The notes under the pieces: generated by a model
Seen by the model: only the letters and a program-made list of their open reading frames with translations
Told to the model about the DNA's origin: nothing
Database searches by the model: none
Part shown: positions 15,951 to 63,630 of the stretch, piece by piece
Numbering within the stretch: position 1 is the first letter of the stretch
How the letters are laid out: the number at the start of each line of letters is the position of its first letter
Made by a program: the position numbers and the translations under genes
Assembly: GCF_950295315.1 (NCBI RefSeq)
Contig: NC_080181.1
Span: 769,026 to 833,025 of the forward strand
Direction: 5' to 3'
DNA length: 64,000 nt
Source: Erinaceus europaeus
Lineage: Eukaryota > Chordata > Mammalia > Eulipotyphla > Erinaceidae

Positions 15951-15954
15951 GTAG

Positions 15955-16162
15955 CCTCTGGAGGCCAGGGCAGGTGAGTGCCTGGGAGCCAGGACAGGTG
16001 ATCTGCTGGGGGGCAGGACAGGTGAGGTCTTGGAGGCCAGGGCAGGTAAGACCCTGGGGTCCAGAGCAGGTGAGGCCATGAGAACCAGAGCAGTCGAGCC
16101 CCTGGGGGCCAGGGCAGGTGAGCCTTTGGGGACCAGGGCAGGTGGGTCCCTGGGAACTAGTT
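15955..16162 (+). repeat. 27-bp minisatellite, about 7-8 units
   Basis: Diverged tandem units of the form 'ccagggcaggtgag' plus 'cctggggg' repeat every ~27 bp. Because 27 is a multiple of 3, both strands stay open, which explains the 68- and 116-residue frames here. Nearly every unit contains CAGGTGAG, CAGGTAAG or a one-base variant. Confidence 0.85.
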
Positions 16163-16924: not shown

Positions 16925-17775
16925 AAATTTTCTTAAGGACCGGAATACATAAAAACTCAGTAAACATCATCAAAAACCAAACAATCCCATCAGAAAATGG
17001 GGTGAGGACATGGACAGAAACATCATCAAGGAAGAGATTCAGAAGACCCACAGACACACGAGAAAGTGTTCAAAGCCACTGATTGTCAGAGAAATGCAAA
17101 TATAGACTACAACATGATACCACTTCACTCCTGTGAGAATGCCATATATCAGAAACAACAGTAATGACTAATGCTGGAGAGCATGTGGAGAAAAAGGGAC
17201 ACTTCTACACTGCTGATGGGAGTGTAAATTGGTCCAACCCCTATGGAGAGAAAGCCCCTGTGGTTTCTCAGAACAGAAAAATGGACCTACCCTATGATCC
17301 AGCAATTTTCTCCCAGAGATTTACCCAAAGGAAGCAAGATCACCTATCAGAAATGCCTATAACAATGAAGTCATCTCCTTTGCCTCATCTTGGATGGAAC
17401 TTGAAGACATCATGTTAAGTGAGATAAGCCAATAAGAGAAGAAAAAACACTGAATGAACTCACTTATAAATGGGACTTAGTAAGTAGGGGCAGGGAGGGA
17501 GAATATAAAATGAAATGTGAACTGGACATGGTGTGTTGTATCAAAGCAAACAACTCTGGGAAATGAGGAGGAGGAAGGGGCTGAAGAGAACATTGGAGTC
17601 CTGGAGTGTGATGGTATAAAAGGACCTAGGTTTTGGGTGAGTGTGTTCTGCACAGAACTTTCACAGGAAGAGGAAAAATTGCACCCACGTATCAATAACT
17701 GCATTGCAAGTCATCAACTCCCCCTAATCAAAATGATAGAAAATGTCAAATAGTAAATGTAATTTTGGAATAATA
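16925..17775 (+). mobile_element. L1, ORF2 C-terminal end and 3' region
   Basis: Matches the L1 order from the last part of ORF2 ('cagagaaatgcaaatatagac', 'gataccacttcactcctgtg', 'gctggagagcatgtggagaa') into the 3' region ('gaacttgaagacatcatgtt', 'gtgagataagccaataag'). Compared with the 9.3 kb copy it lacks the 'caatggaatactactc' segment, so it has an internal deletion near 17370. It ends in an 'aataataaaaa' tail near 17775. Confidence 0.88.
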
Positions 17776-17838
17776 AAAAATCTTTATAATTCTCCTGTAA
17801 ACTACCAAAAGCAAAACTCTTTTGACATTTGTGAAGAC

Positions 17839-18063
17839 TCTTTTTTTATTATTTTTCATTATTATCTTTATGTATTTATTGGATGAGCAGTCATAAATCA
17901 AGAGGAAAGTGGGTAATAGAGAGGGACAGAGACAGAGAGACACCTGTAGCACTGCTTTACCACTAGAAAGCTTTCCCCCTGCAGGTGGGGACAGGGGGCT
18001 TGAACCCAGGTCCTTGCACATTGTAGCATGTGCGCTCAACCAGGTGTACAACCACTCAGCCCC
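17839..18063 (-). mobile_element. SINE family B
   Basis: T-rich start, 'agagacacctgtagcactgc' body complement, 'ccctgcaggtgggga', and head complement ending 'acaaccactcagcccc'. An 8-bp flank, actctttt, occurs at both ends. It abuts the MIR that carries the 18.1-19.1 kb insertion. Confidence 0.88.
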
Positions 18064-18065
18064 AA

Positions 18066-18121
18066 CTCTTTTCCATCTATACAATATAATGTTATCATCT
18101 CGCACATACTCTTGTTGAGAT
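18066..18121 (+). mobile_element. MIR, left half (split)
   Basis: 'acaatataatgttatcatctc' through 'tcttgttgagat' corresponds to the MIR segment 'ggggataataatacctacctcatagggttgttg'. The MIR is interrupted at 18122 and resumes after 19107. Together the two halves give a continuous MIR 3' region. Confidence 0.75.
18110..18121. repeat. target-site duplication, left copy
   Basis: tcttgttgagat, identical to 19096-19107, flanks the non-LTR insertion. The bases on either side belong to the MIR on the outside and the insert on the inside. Confidence 0.85.
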
Positions 18122-18125
18122 TCTT

Positions 18126-18957
18126 CTAGCGTTTGCCCTTCTTCCATAGCCAGTCAACAGCGTCGGGTTGAGCCTGATGTAAAGTCTCGAGACCTCCTTT
18201 GAATCTGGAGAGGTGGCAGTCGCTGACTATGTGGGTCATAGTCTGTCTGGAGCCGCAGGGGCAGTTCGGGTCGTCTCTGACTCCCCAGCGATGGAACATA
18301 GTGGCGCATGGCCTGTTCGATAGCGATTGAGGAGGGCCCAATCATAACGTGCTAGGTCAAAGCCGGGTTGACGCTCGCGGGGGTCTGTGATGAGGTGTTT
18401 GTTCTTTACCTCAGCTGACTGCCAGCTCTGTTTCCAAGAGTCTGGAACAGAGAAGTTCAGTGTAGGCATAGGGGACCAGATTGGGTGACGAGACGTCAAG
18501 CGTTGGACAGGGTGGGCGAAGATATCCGCATATATTGGCAGGTCGGGTCGAGCAAAGACGTGGGAAATGAACTTAGATGATGCCGCATCCCGACGAATAT
18601 CTGGCGGGGCGATGCTGCTAAGAACTGGCAGCCATGGAACCGGGGTGGAACAGATGGTTCCAGAAATTATCCTCATGGAGGAATATAATTTGGAATCGAC
18701 CAAGTGGACATGGGGGCTACGAAACCATACTGGGGCACAGTATTCTGCAGTGGAATAGCATAATGCCAGAGAGGATGATCGTAGTGTGGAAGTGCTCGCG
18801 CCCCATGAGGAGCTGGCCAGTCTTGCAATGATGTTATTCCTCGCGCCCACCTTTGCTGCAGTTTTTATGAGATGTTTGTGAAATGGGGTGCATTGGATCG
18901 ACCTTCCCATGGTGCATTCCCGTGAGTACCCATTCATTGGGGAAACTGACGATCCTT
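18126..18957 (-). pseudogene. ORF2 C-terminal part: reverse transcriptase end and zinc knuckle
   Basis: The minus strand encodes the region after the reverse-transcriptase catalytic core. Motifs in order are 'TAAKVGARNN', 'SSWGAS', 'ALCYSTAEYCAPVW', 'MRIISGT', 'PWLPVLSSIAPP', 'QPGFDLARYDWALLNRYRTG', and a terminal C-x1-C-x7-H-x4-C zinc knuckle ('CPCGSRQTMTHIVSDC'). That knuckle is typical of the I/Jockey/R1/CR1 groups and absent in this form from L1. The frame changes once near 18300-18315, between 'RYRTG' and the knuckle segment, and probably once near 18905-18925 at the upstream end. The catalytic YxDD region is not included. The fragment is non-functional, but its long open frames and CpG content suggest limited decay. 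Confidence 0.85.
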
Positions 18958-19095
18958 CCTAGCCGACCGAATCCACATGGATCCCAGTCACTTTCAAAGC
19001 CAGCAACAAGCAGCTCCTGACAGCTTTCAAGCTGTTGGTCCTGTTCTTTGAATCCTCCAACTTAATGTTGAGGGGCTGTCCTTTGCCAAACGCGT
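18958..19095 (+). pseudogene. inverted 5' piece: start of endonuclease ORF
   Basis: On the plus strand an ATG at 18977-18979 opens a frame that meets TGA at 19049-19051. It continues directly as 'ILQLNVEGLSFAKR', which strongly resembles the first strand of the apurinic-type endonuclease in the same group of elements. This sequence lies opposite in strand to the reverse-transcriptase part next to it. The endonuclease catalytic residues further downstream are missing. Confidence 0.75.
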
Positions 19096-19180
19096 TCTTG
19101 TTGAGATGATTAAATATCATACTGTGTGTAAAATGCCTAGCACATTATTTGGCACAAACTAGGCACCAAATAAACATAAT
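19096..19180 (+). mobile_element. target duplication and MIR, right half
   Basis: Starts with the second copy of tcttgttgagat (19096-19107). The MIR 3' end follows: 'gattaaatatcat', 'tgtaaaatgcctagcac', and 'ggcacaaactaggcacc' with 'aataaac', corresponding to the MIR 'cttagcacagtgcctggcac...aataaatg' region. Confidence 0.78.
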
Positions 19181-19261
19181 TTATATAATATAATTATATA
19201 AATTCTTTTTAAAATGTCTTTTTAAAAATAATTCTTTTAAAAAATGTCTATTTAAAAATTT

Positions 19262-19374
19262 TCTCCAGAATACTGTTCAACTCTGGCTTATGGTGTGCTG
19301 GGGATTGAATCTGGGAGCTCAGAGGCTCAGGCATGAGAGTTGTTGGCGTAACCACTATGCTATCTCTCCAGACC
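19262..19374 (-). mobile_element. SINE family D fragment
   Basis: 'ctgttcaactctggcttatgg', 'gctggggattgaatctggg' and 'accactatgctatctctcc' are the complement of a family D head and body. It sits after an AT-rich stretch at 19170-19260. Confidence 0.8.
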
Positions 19375-22200
19375 CTAAAAAACGCCTTTTGAATACTCTG
19401 GTGGGAGTATTCATGAGATCAGTGGAGAGATGGAGGTGGTAAGACATGGGGTTAGGAAAGCTGAGCCAGAGCCCAAGGGTCCCATATGCCACTTCCTCTG
19501 TGAAGGTCACAGCTGGCCTCCTGCTCTGTCATCAGAGCCATGGGTGGCCACTGGGCACCTGAAGTCCCTCATTTGTGCCAAAATACACGTCAGTGTGAAA
19601 CACCTACCAGATGTGGGGGGGGGGGGGACTGCGTAGTTTTGAAACTAAAATATCTCGAATGATGCCTTAAGTCACTTACATATTAAAATGATAACAATTT
19701 GAGTGTACTGGCTTAGGGAAGGATGTTAACATTAACTTCATCTGTTTTTATTTTGCTTAGAGAGGCCACACTCAAGCTGCGGCTGGCATCACAGCTGTAC
19801 CTGTGTGTTCTGGAAACAACGCTTTGGGCACAGAAAGGTCCAGGGTGACCGTGCCCAGCTCAGCAGGAGGGGCTATGATGCAGACAATGCTAAGGGCCAC
19901 ACACAGGCAGCCATGGCAGAGCTCACAGCAGATGGAAATTCCTTCTGAGAAGGATAATTGGATATCTCCACTGGCCTGGTCATAATTGAATTCTTGCAAC
20001 ATTTCACAGCGGAATATTTTCTCTAAGCAGGAGAGCCATGAAGAACCCCTGAAGCTCAAAGGAAAAGCTCTGATTATGACTTGTGATAGCTCTATTGGCC
20101 TCTGATATGGAGAAAAGGAGGGGAGCGCTCAGGCTCAGGACAGCCACAGCTCTCTCCCCTGAAGTCCCCTATGCGGACTCCCATCCCAGAATACCTGGCT
20201 GTCTGCTGGGGCTAGGACAAGGATGAAGATCACACGAAGAAGACCATGTGGCTGGTGTCCACTGCTCCACCTTCACCCCTGAGGGAAGAGGGTGACCCAC
20301 AGAGAACTGATCTCAAGGCTGATCCAGGTGAGAGGAGAACCCCAGAAATCCACAGATGAGGAGGTGGCCTCTGAGTCAGGGAATTTATTGTATTTCAACA
20401 CAATTTCATCTGGCGCCACTGCCTGCTCACTCTGATGTGTCTGGAGAAGCTCCACCGAGTGTGTGAAGCCAGGGATGTTTGGACATAAACAAAGCTGTAT
20501 CCAGTCTGAATTTCTCCTGACACGTCAGGCCTGGCCTCACGTTTACCTCATCCTCCCCTTGGTGCTGGCTGACTTGAGGACTCAGAAGCAGATGTGTGTC
20601 AGACCCAGCAGCCAAGTCCTCCTCCCTAGAGCCCTTCTGTAGGGTTCTGTAGAAAGTGAGTCCGCAGAGTCTGAGGGAGTACTTGCTCAATGTGGGATCC
20701 AGTCACCTGCAGCTGTCCAGGTTTGTGGTGCCAAGTCACAGCTCTCAAATGCACTTGTGACAGCAGCAAGACTGAGGGAGACAGACAAGCTGACAAGGCT
20801 CTCAGGTTACAGGTGGAGGGATCCTTCCAGCCAGGGCACTACACGAAGACTCTCCTCTCCTGCAACTGCCATAGGCCAGTCCCAACAGAGACCATCAGCA
20901 CAGAGTGAGCTCCTTTGCGAGACCAAGAACATCAGCCACACTCTGTGTGTGAGCCACCTTACTGTGGAGTTAATTAGAAATCACTCATTCTCACTTTAAG
21001 AGAGAAATGCTGAGCTACTGAGGGGAGAGACTCAGGGAGAGGTGTTAGAGCTCAGCACAGCCTGACCCAAACCCCCTCCACACTTCCTTCCTGTGGCTTC
21101 ATTTAACCAGGAGCAAGTGTGGCCTCCAGGAAGTCCTGATTGAGTGGAGTACACCAACAGTATGTCCGGATTCTCCTCTCTGTGTGAACCAGGGTCCCCA
21201 CAGGACAGCTGGCCGTTGAGTGGTCCTTGATTATTCTCCATAGGTCACAGATCTTATTTCCCCAATTCCCAGGAGATAAGAAATGACTCTGTGCAGCACC
21301 TCACTGCTCCAGGTCTCCAGCCCCACCTTGCTGGGCACAGGCTCGCATTTGGGTGCTGGAATGAAGTCCAGGCTTTGGAGACACCTGTGTATTCCAGCTG
21401 CTGCGCCAAATTACTTTGCAGTAAGGACAGTGGCTGAAGAGACTGTGACTGAGAGTTCAGCCTTGATGTCTTCTCTTCACTCAGAGGACAGAGGGATGGC
21501 AAGCACAAGAGCCTGCTCCCTGCTCTCTAGCTTCCTGTCACTCACTAGCTTGGGATGCTCCTGTGCTGATGGCTCTCTGGCTGAGCGACAGCAAGATGAG
21601 CAGAACCCTCAGAACTGGCTACTGGGAAGCTGGATCTGTGGGGGTGGCAAGCCCTGGGTGGCTATGTGGAGAGCCGCTTGGGAGCAGGCCCCAAGGATTC
21701 CTTGCTCTGTGAAGTGCAGTCTCTCAGGTGAGCACTGAGCCAGGGTTAAACCAACACTAGGATATGAGCAGCCCTGAAGGAACCTGGGGACCTCCCCCTA
21801 GGTAGCAACTCTGACTGAGAGGAGGAAGGAGAGAGTGCCAGGCCCAGTCCCAACTCTGTACAGGCTTCCTCTAGAATCATGAGAGGGTTCCCGGAGAATG
21901 GCAGGTGACAGATGAAAGAAGGGAAAGCATGGTTCTCCTGACAGGAGGTGGGAATGGAGTCATAGGACCTTTCCTGTATTCTCACCTGCTATAGTTTCCC
22001 CCTTGGAACCAGTAGGATGTGGCTCAGACTTTCCCCTCACAGAGCCAGGCCCACATAGGAGCACAGGGGAGAGTGTTAGTTTTTATCTGCCGTCAGCCTT
22101 AGAGTGGGCTGTATGGTCAGTCTGTGGACCACACTGATCCTCAGGAGCATCTCATGCTCACTCAGTTATGTCACCAGGAAGTCACTGGTCAGGACTCATG
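19375..22200. other. 2.8 kb without a supported gene
   Basis: Includes a 13-G run at 19615-19627 and open frames up to 151 residues (21283-21738). None of these frames shows a recognisable domain, a splice-site context I could trust, or codon structure. The minus-strand frame at 19772-20059 is cysteine-rich with a hydrophobic stretch, but it has no family I can name. Confidence 0.4.
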
Positions 22201-23502: not shown

Positions 23503-23780
23503 AGAGGAGAGGAGAGGAGAGGAGGGAGGGGGAGGGGGGAGGGGAGGGGAGGGGAGGGGAGAGGAGGGAGGGGGAGGGGGGAGGGGAGAGGAGGGGAGAG
23601 GAGGGGAGAGGAGGGGAGGGGAATGGGGAGGAGAGGGGAGGGGAGGGGGCATAGAAGGGTAGGGGAGGAAAAGGGAGGGGAGGAAAGGAGGAGAGGGAAG
23701 GGGAGGAGAATGGGGAGGAGAGGGAAGGGGATGGGGGACATATAAGGGGAGGGGAGGAAAGGAGAGGCAAGGCAAGGAGT
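23503..23780 (+). repeat. G-rich purine minisatellite inside a SINE
   Basis: About 280 bp of nearly pure purine on the plus strand, built from GGGGA, GGAGA and GGAGGGG sub-units, with many runs of 4-6 G. The open frames on both strands here simply reflect the repeat. The potential for G-quadruplex or triplex structure is high. Confidence 0.95.
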
Positions 23781-27800: not shown

Positions 27801-28340
27801 AGAGTGCACACTGAGATGATGGGGACTGAGGGACCACACAGAGGAGGGACACTGAGATGACGGGGACTGAGGGGCCACACAGAGGAGGGACATTGAGATG
27901 ATGGAGACTGAGGGGCCAGACAGAGGAGGGATACTGAGATGATGGAGACTGAGGGGCCATACAAAGGAGGGACACTGAGATGATGGAGACTGAGGGGCCA
28001 TACAGAGGAGGGACACTGAGATGATGGGGACTGAGGGGCCACACAGAGGAGGGACACTGAGATGATGGGGACTGAGGGGCCACACAGAGGAGGGACACTG
28101 AGATGACGGGGACTGAAGGGCCATACAGAGGAGGGACACTGAGATGACGGGGACTGAGAGCCACACAGAGGAGGGACATTGAGATGACGGGGACTGAGAG
28201 CCACACAGAGGAGGGACACTGAGATGACAGGGACTGAGGGGCCACACAGAGGAGGGACATTGAGATGACGGGGACTGAGGGACCATACAGAGGAGGGACA
28301 CTGAGATGACGGGGACTGAGAGCCACACAGAGGAGGGACT
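27801..28340 (-). repeat. 41-bp minisatellite, about 13 units
   Basis: Units with core 'actgagatgatggggactgag' followed by 'gggccacacagaggaggg' repeat every 41 bp, a few being 40 bp. The period is not a multiple of 3, so each of the three minus-strand frames cycles through all phases and stays open, giving the 168-203 residue artefact frames. Unit variants (gacgg/gatgg, cacaca/cataca, aggggc/agagc) are intermixed. Confidence 0.95.
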
Positions 28341-39229: not shown

Positions 39230-39569
39230 TTTATTTTTTTAAATGTTTTTCTTTTCCTTTTTATTTTATCTTTTTTTTATTTCACTTTAATTAATTAATT
39301 AATTAATTAATTCCCTTTAGTTGCCCTTGTTTTATTGTTGTAGTTATTGTTATTGATGTCATCGTTGTTGGATAGGACAGAGAGAAATGGAGAGAGGAGG
39401 GGAAGACAGAGAGTGGGGGTAGAAAGATAGACACCTGCAGACCTGCTTCACCGCTTATGAAGCAACTCCCCTGCAGGTGGGGAGCCTGGGGCTCGAACCG
39501 GGATCCTCATGCTGATTCTTGCGCCTTGCGCCACGTGCGCTTAACCTGCTGCCCTACTGCCCAACTCCC
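39230..39569 (-). mobile_element. SINE family A inside duplicated segment
   Basis: (AATT)n and T-rich start, 'tgttggataggacagagaga', and a well-kept head complement ('cgccacgtgcgcttaacc'). The duplication tattttcac lies at 39221-39229 and 39570-39578. The insertion postdates the segment duplication or hit only one copy. Confidence 0.92.
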
Positions 39570-54683: not shown

Positions 54684-54960
54684 GGGGGGGGTTGGATGGT
54701 AGCGCAGCGGGTTAAGCCCACGTGGCACAAAGCGCAAGGACCAGAGGAAGGATCCGGGTTCAAGCCCCTGGCTCTCCACCTGCAGGGGAGTTGCTTCACA
54801 GGTGGTGAAACAGGTCTGCAGGTGTCTGTTTTTCTCTCCTTCTCTGTATTCTCCTCCTCTCTCCATTTCTCTCTGACCTATCCAACAACATCAACAACAA
54901 CAACAACTATAACAATAAAACAAGGGCAACAAAAAGGAATAAATAAATATTTAAAAAAGA
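54684..54960 (+). mobile_element. SINE family A
   Basis: 'ggatggtagcgcagcgggtt' head after a run of 9 G, 'gggttcaagcccc', CT-rich body, 'gacctatccaacaacatc' and an 'aataaataaatatttaaaaaa' tail. Confidence 0.92.
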
Positions 54961-55545: not shown

Positions 55546-56932
55546 TCCCTGGGAGGGAGGGCAGGACTCCATTTAAAGAGAGACCCAATCCACAGAGCTA
55601 CAGTGGCGTAGGGTCACTTGGGTTTTAAGGTGGAGATCCCAGTGAGGACAGCCCCCAGGACAGGGCTCAGAGAAAAGAGCAGCTGAGGAAGTCCATCATC
55701 CAAAGGAGCATCTCAGCTTGAGACAAGGTCCCCATGGCTGGGATGTCTGAGCACAGTTCTGTCTAATGAGGGCAATTAGGATGAGTTTAGGTGCTGTACT
55801 ATTTATGATTGAGCAAGGTCAGGGTGATTAAGCCTCTTTCATTATTTATAAGTCTGTGTGTAATTGTTTCAGATTCTAGGTGTTTGTATGTTCTGACAGA
55901 ACTCCTGGTGATGCTATTCTAGGTCCTCCTGATGCATGCATCTGTTTCCCCCCAATTCCAGTCATTAAGCCAAAAATACAGTCTGCTCTGACATTAATCA
56001 AAAGAGTGAGTGTGATCACTTTTGGCAAGCTGGAGCTTTTTGAAAAGAGCACAGGGAATGAAAAGCACAGTCACTTTTACTCTGTCCTTTACTTAAGGAA
56101 AAGACTTAAGAGCCATTTACATCATCCTCAGGACTGGAGTCTCATATGGCTCTCAGTGGCTACTGGCCATGAGAAATGGCTCCTGGATCAGCATCCACAT
56201 TCCTGGATGAGTCCAGTGTGGAGTCAGCACTCACCCCTGAGCTCTGTGCAAACATGAGCAGCCCTCTCCCCAGATCTGCAGGACAGACATGTGCATGTTC
56301 ATGGGGAGGGAGCCTAGAGCATCTGTTTCAGACACATGAAAATTCAATTAAAGGATCAGCTCTCAGAATTACCATGAGCAAGTATCAACAGAGGAAACCA
56401 CAACCTAATTATATTACACATTTTAAAGTGAAGATAAAGGCTCCAAGCCAAGTCGGTCACACCAGTGGACTCATTTCCCAGAAAGCCAGCACACATTTTT
56501 TTACCTAAGCTGTCTCTGGAAGCAGGAAAGGCAAAAAAGAATCATCTTTTGTTTAGGCAAGATTTTATCAGATCCTTCCAAAATACAATTCAACCACAAA
56601 ACTGAAAGACTGGAAGGCTGTGAAAACAGTAGGTAATGAAGAGGAGGAGGTTGAGTCACTAATCTCACAACCATGGATTTCTCTCCCACTGCCTGCCACT
56701 CTGACAGTAACAGAGAAGTATATGTGCTTGGGAGGGGACAGAAGGCAGGGGATGAGGGACAGGGGACAAGACCCCCTCCAACCTACAGCCACTCAGGCAG
56801 GGGGCAAAATGCCCCATAGCAGTTCAGAGCCTAGGGTGGCAGTAAGCCTAGTAAGGTACATGGCCTGGTCCCATGTGACTCCTGGTGACACCTGAGCATT
56901 TCACAGATGCTGCTACCCAAGAACACTGTAGG
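55546..56932. other. 1.4 kb of unassigned sequence
   Basis: Open frames up to 125 residues (55880-56257) have no recognisable domain, and no exon is supported. Confidence 0.4.
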
Positions 56933-57202
56933 GAGTTGGGCAGTAACACAGCAGGTTAAGTGCAGGTGGCACAAAGCACAAGGACCAGAGTAAAGATCCT
57001 GGTTCAAGCCCCCAGCTCCCCACCTGCAGGGGAGTCGCTTCATAAGCAGTGAAGACGGTCTACAGTTATCTATCTTGCTCTTCCCTCTCTGTCTTCCTCT
57101 CCTCTCTCCATTTCTCTCTGTCCTATCTAACAAGGATGACATCAATAACTACAACAATAAAACAAGGGCAACAAAAGGGAATAATAATAAAATAAAAAGA
57201 AT
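56933..57202 (+). mobile_element. SINE family A
   Basis: 'gggagttgggcagtaacacag' head, 'ggttcaagcccccagctcccc', CT-rich body, 'gtcctatctaacaaggatgac' and an AATAATAAAATAAAAAG tail. Confidence 0.92.
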
Positions 57203-62976: not shown

Positions 62977-63630
62977 TATATAGTGCTGACCCCTGACCCT
63001 GTGCCCACAGCTGACCCCTTCCCAGTGCTGACTGATCCTGTGCCCACAACTGACTCCTTCCCAGTGCTGACTGATCCTGTGTCCACAGCTGACCCCTGCT
63101 CAGTGCTGACTGATCCTGTGCCTACAGCTGACTCCTTCCCAGTGCTGACTGATCCTGTGTCCACAGATGACCCCTGCTCAGTGCTGACTGACCCTGTGTC
63201 CACAGCTACCCCCTGCCCAGTGCTGACTGACCCTGTGCCCACAGCTGACCCCTTCCCAGTGCTGACTGATCCTGTGTCCACAGCTGACCCCTTCCCAGTG
63301 CTGACTGATCCTGTGTCCACAGCTGACCCCTGCTCAGTGCTGACTGACCCTGTGTCCACAGCTACCCCCTGCCCAGTGCTGACTGACCCTGTGCCCACAG
63401 CTGACCCCTTCCCAGTGCTGACTGATCCTGTGTCACAGCTGACTCCTTCCCAGTGCTGACTGATCCTCTGTCCACAGATGACCCCTGCTCAGTGCTGACT
63501 GACCCTGTGTCCACAGCTACCCCCTGCCCAGTGCTGACTGACCCTGTGTCCACAGCTGACCCCTTCCCAGTACCTGCCCTTATGTCCACAGCTGGCCTCT
63601 GCCTAGTTCTGACTGACCCTGTGTCCATGA
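62977..63630 (+). repeat. 39-bp minisatellite, about 16-17 units
   Basis: Units of the form 'gtgctgactgatcctgtgtc' plus 'cacagctgaccccttccca' repeat every 39 bp. Sub-types alternate: 'gacccctgctca', 'taccccctgccca', 'gaccccttccca', 'gactccttccca'. The 13-codon period keeps both strands open, giving 174- and 140-residue frames with no proper start. A 1-base deletion near 63431 shifts phase. The last units (63570-63630) are diverged. Confidence 0.96.

Follow-up and report, generated by a model that had tools for sequence, protein, structure and literature searches.

Vingi-1_EE and Vingi-1_AAl are names of hedgehog Vingi families, and the non-autonomous Vingi families of hedgehogs have a leader that is joined to the 3' part of the element by internal deletion. 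The Vingi clade was reportedly established from hedgehogs by Kojima, Kapitonov and Jurka in 2011, as a sister to Ingi that lacks RNase H; the same study is said to have covered non-autonomous Vingi derivatives and to have proposed horizontal transfer, and its title, as cited, contains 'Ingi-related'. Passages on Vingi in other papers report the element from hedgehogs and reptiles (PMC5753468), propose its horizontal transfer in hedgehogs (PMC3183009, PMC5753468) and place hedgehog Vingi among the older likely horizontal transfers, with families common to several species (PMC3183009). For Erinaceus europaeus itself, the relevant passage gives 311 copies of Vingi-1N3_EE that are <1% diverged (PMC3183009). 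According to the parts of the literature that mention them, a locust transcriptome contains Vingi (PMC3391268), Vingi-2_Acar is listed for a lizard (PMC3747384) and human X12_LINE is listed as a Vingi trace (PMC5753468). By this last entry, an old presence of Vingi in mammals exists. The available text of a paper on Atelerix repeats mentions neither Vingi nor Ingi, and the 4476 I-Jockey copies in its table may or may not include Vingi (PMC12026660). In the accessible portion of a further paper (PMC3500645), the mention is limited to citing Kojima, Kapitonov and Jurka 2011.

We analyzed a stretch of 64,000 nucleotides of E. europaeus DNA (hereafter the window), in which a non-LTR retrotransposon insert was delimited (Table 1). 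The insert probably belongs to the Vingi family of hedgehogs (probability about 0.87). This assignment, the most likely one, rests on homology, anatomy and the literature, the sequences compared being ones that carry no Vingi label. Since a retrotransposon of this kind, suspected to have arrived from another animal, has been described in hedgehogs, the insert would be ordinary for such a genome.

Table 1. Features of the insert and its target site, in window coordinates
Feature	Positions	Strand	Basis
Non-LTR retrotransposon insert	18122..19095	-	974 bp; flanked by exact 12-bp copies; homology to reverse transcriptase (RT) relatives
Target-site duplication, copy beside the element's 3' end	18110..18121		Same 12 bp as 19096-19107
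Target-site duplication, copy beside the element's 5' end	19096..19107		Same 12 bp as 18110-18121
MIR portion ahead of the insertion, weak alone	18065..18109	+	Joined flanks aligned to MIR consensus; start placed after SINE end at 18064
MIR portion past the insertion	19108..19174	+	Joined flanks aligned to MIR consensus
5' leader, ~182 nt, probable 5' untranslated region	18914..19095	-	RT relatives match convincingly on neither strand
Region following the RT core, first frame	18305..18913	-	56% identical to P0001; E 4e-73 for this and the second-frame part jointly
C-terminal region with knuckle and stop codon, second frame	18126..18311	-	52% identity to P0001 over 18308-18147

Boundaries and target site

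A preliminary description of this DNA had placed the insert between perfect 12-bp repeats, and both its length and the repeats were borne out: an exact target-site duplication, as expected of a non-LTR retrotransposon, surrounds it. The same description had put the insertion within a MIR. When the flanks were joined with one target copy and aligned to the 3' half of a MIR consensus, the score was 39, while none of 500 shuffles exceeded 17, and the alignment spanned the insertion junction. The right flank alone scored 29 against this consensus (shuffle maximum 19) and the left flank alone 17 (shuffle maximum 14.5), so the left-side match is weak by itself; its first ~15 bases are the tail of a SINE copy at 18009-18064. 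Exact target copies inside a MIR mark a genuine germline insertion, as claimed. Contamination of the assembly with invertebrate DNA would account for a composition unlike that of the surroundings, but it leaves unexplained why an exact duplication inside a MIR flanks the insert, and we find it hardly conceivable.

Reading towards the 3' terminus, the knuckle is followed by a short C-terminus, a stop codon and four bases, and then by the target copy; a 3' untranslated region is practically absent. The insert ends without the poly-A tail by which an L1 would be recognized, in agreement with the earlier view that it is not L1. No credible second copy was found in the window: the other blastn matches of the insert were 12-25 nt long (E 0.63-7.7), and tblastn with 120 of 288 protein relatives gave 755 matches outside the insert at E ≤ 10, the best at 0.012 and none credible. 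The repeat families listed for the window comprised 20 direct ones, out of 28, and 25 inverted ones, out of 69; none of those listed lay within the insert.

The repeat content of the window includes many copies of a SINE-like repeat, spread along its length in both orientations and ~60-91% alike (e.g., 1076-1266, 39379-39569, 54687-54837 and 56931-57081), which we take to be tRNA-derived SINEs of the hedgehog type, in keeping with hedgehog as the source of the DNA. There are also two minisatellites, at 62993-63627 (39-bp unit, 16.4 copies, 87% matches) and 27808-28339 (41-bp unit, 13 copies, 93% matches), a tandem repeat at 15953-16154 (24/48-bp unit, 8.2 and 4.2 copies, 72% matches), and a purine-rich GGAGG array at 23506-23735 (5-bp unit, 45.4 copies, 72% matches).

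Coding content and protein relatives

The insert encodes the portion of a non-LTR RT that lies downstream of the RT core and ends in a C-x-C-x7-H-x4-C knuckle, so the C-terminal part of an RT that had been read from the letters was found again by homology. The relatives are RT proteins; RVT_1 was detected upstream of the matched part in three of the seven scanned, the other four starting within or after the RT core. The single frame formerly drawn from 18126 to 18937 was replaced by two, as one frame holds the matches of relatives between 18913 and ~18305 and a second frame those between ~18311 and 18147. The reading frame is thus broken once, near 18305-18311, a break that all members of a non-autonomous family may have or that may have arisen in this copy alone. 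Tblastn with 120 of the 288 relatives gave 193 matches to the insert region at E ≤ 10. Frame -1 accounts for 124 of these, frame -3 for 67 and the plus strand for two.

In profile scans, the knuckle piece matched zf-RVT only weakly (E 0.025; 15.7 bits, where the cut-off is 27.5). For the first-frame piece the single match, to GHL13 (E 0.26), was at the level of chance. No RNase H family turned up in any of the three pieces of the insert (E ≤ 1), in the seven relatives scanned (E ≤ 0.1) or among the precomputed domains of the protein-search rows listed. Judged from these profile scans, the absence of RNase H is what the definition of Vingi leads one to expect, yet it is not specific to Vingi.

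Of 610 candidates in a protein search with the first-frame piece, 288 were relatives at E ≤ 0.001 (best E 1.3e-68). The best near-full-length relative covered 87% of the query at 56% identity; in a few shorter matches, which covered about half of it, identity was 61-62%. A second search, in which the 7991 candidates sharing most words were scored, gave 1773 proteins, of which 120 were listed. The organisms named among the matches listed were Synaphobranchus, an eel, the beetles Cylas and Callosobruchus, the psyllids Diaphorina and Cyamophila, the planthopper Nilaparvata and the pseudoscorpion Cordylochernes; no mammal was named in the matches listed (120 of 288 and 120 of 1773). Judging by their sources, most rows that lack an organism are presumably metagenomic. 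A quick tree of 68 of 220 proteins and the insert grouped the latter with P0004 and P0009 (SH-aLRT 94; no starred set), and the end branch of the insert was long (0.76). The missing starred set and the long branch count against the Vingi assignment. The first-frame piece had no pattern match in IMG/VR contigs and 35 pattern matches, none of them a relative, in GTDB contigs; records near the genome of the window were possibly left out of both sets.

Leader and internal structure

Strong RT homology in the insert starts at 18913-18916. In an alignment of 16 relatives, most extended upstream of the match start, while P0001 begins near there and P0036 differs there. Three relatives were displayed in full, and their matches start at 18913 except for that of P0061, which reaches 18994 with poor identity and crosses a stop codon, so that the boundary of the leader is not beyond doubt. 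This extension was taken as spurious, as were three weak matches (E 0.17, 5.3 and 8.2) that were the other leader-side exceptions among the matches listed. Since homology starts at 18913-18916 though longer relatives continue upstream, the leader looks like a 5' region that was placed beside the 3' part through internal deletion. The structure, a leader without convincing RT homology joined to a 3' part, was seen in one copy only. We lean towards a non-autonomous Vingi subtype.

Alternatively, the insert might be a private defective copy of the same Vingi family, that is, a full-length Vingi that was 5'-truncated or rearranged. One copy is visible in the window, and taken singly an element that was truncated at its 5' end and rearranged privately would look the same. 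Non-autonomous families of the kind in question are described by internal deletion, which speaks against a private event, as does the lack of a credible inverted RT piece among the 193 tblastn matches, whose two on the plus strand have E values of 4.0 and 5.7. For this host, moreover, a family with a non-autonomous-style name, Vingi-1N3_EE, appears in print in the passage cited above (PMC3183009). A private origin is a variant within the best explanation, and their odds overlap; we regard it as possible, though doubtful.

Two further candidates were tried and rejected. Twin priming would have left an inverted 5' piece, and the same two plus-strand matches out of 193 included none that was credible. 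An HDV-like ribozyme is found at the 5' end of some Ingi-group elements, and none was among the four Rfam matches obtained for 18050-19200 at E ≤ 10 (E 2.7 to 9.9), of which no RNA family was credible in the leader. At the gathering threshold the whole window had 0 Rfam matches, and the RNA fold of the leader was no better than that of shuffles (z -0.28).

Age and origin of the copy

About 45 CpG between CpG-poor flanks had been counted by hand, and the count was exact: 18125-19095 holds 45 (observed/expected 0.68), against 352 in the 63002 bp outside 18110-19107 (0.11). The neighboring 1001-bp stretches hold 2 (17100-18100) and 9 (19110-20110), and the median over the window is 5 per 970 bp (1261 overlapping windows, including those that cover the insert). 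The high CpG content needs two qualifications. Mononucleotide shuffles of the insert (n = 2000) had a mean of 66 CpG (sd 6) against the 45 observed, so the insert is itself somewhat CpG-depleted, far less than the DNA around it. TpG and CpA are equally frequent inside and outside (observed/expected 1.23 and 1.23 in the insert, 1.26 and 1.28 in the remaining window), which makes CpG content alone a soft measure of age. Of 51 near-invariant residues, 50 are retained in the first-frame part; the 204 relatives used for this count, those of 220 with a match of >150 residues, keep a median of 96% and at the lowest 82%. Together, the exact target copies, the CpG content and the conserved residues point to a young copy whose source, the frame break aside, was recently functional.

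The Jockey/CR1/R1 label of the preliminary description is probably not the best one, Vingi being the sister of Ingi and the cited title reading 'Ingi-related'. The terminal knuckle is common to several of these clades, and could also belong to a CR1/L2, Jockey or R1 element that has decayed. An old mammalian repeat passed on by vertical inheritance finds some footing in X12_LINE, the Vingi trace that one passage lists for human (PMC5753468). Great age of either sort is, however, at odds with a CpG ratio of 0.68 against 0.11, exact target copies and 50 of 51 conserved residues, and we consider it very unlikely. High CpG content and a conserved coding part would also suit a second, unreported I-group lineage of hedgehogs besides Vingi-1, brought in by a separate recent transfer; the donor would then be one not yet sampled, given that the best near-full-length relative among the matches listed is 56% identical. 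That idea seems improbable to us, because a family already known from hedgehogs shows the same features and accounts for the insert with no need of a new event. Nor was any near-identical protein present among the matches listed; the proteins of the hedgehog element thus seem to lie outside the database, so that a missing near match says little.

Under the Vingi assignment, we postulate one copy of relatively young age, made up of a short 5' leader and, joined to it, the final ~790 bp of the element. It would have been inserted by target-primed reverse transcription: at a nick in the MIR, its RNA would have been copied by the enzyme of a complete Vingi element that lies at another site in the genome. 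As the endonuclease and the catalytic RT core are missing, the insert itself would be unable to make active enzyme. The recent arrival suggested earlier is borne out as to the apparent youth of the copy but incomplete: for hedgehogs the element is probably not a foreign one, and it fits Vingi, known from them since 2011. The idea of a horizontal transfer is already in print, and the copy most likely belongs to a described hedgehog family.

The insert would exemplify a family whose presence in a mammal lineage is cited, in the passage on hedgehog Vingi, as a likely case of horizontal transfer (PMC3183009). The Vingi family bears on the crossing of LINEs between species and on their later loss of CpG, to which a single copy adds little. 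Of the known systems, Vingi-1_EE, Vingi-1_AAl and the Vingi-1N families come closest, with an RT lineage without RNase H, young copies and a hedgehog-like genome; the likeness to the Vingi-1N families, one of structure rather than of letters compared one by one, may extend to an apparent internal deletion. The Ingi clade of trypanosomes and others is a related RT lineage that differs in having RNase H, of which none was found in the insert pieces or the seven relatives, and the insert differs from the Ingi group also in a 5' end without an HDV-like ribozyme match. RTE1_Sar of the common shrew is, according to the part of the source that deals with it, an RTE element that is linked to nematodes and was not detected in hedgehog, and it resembles the insert as a eulipotyphlan retrotransposon for which horizontal transfer has been argued (PMC6542046).
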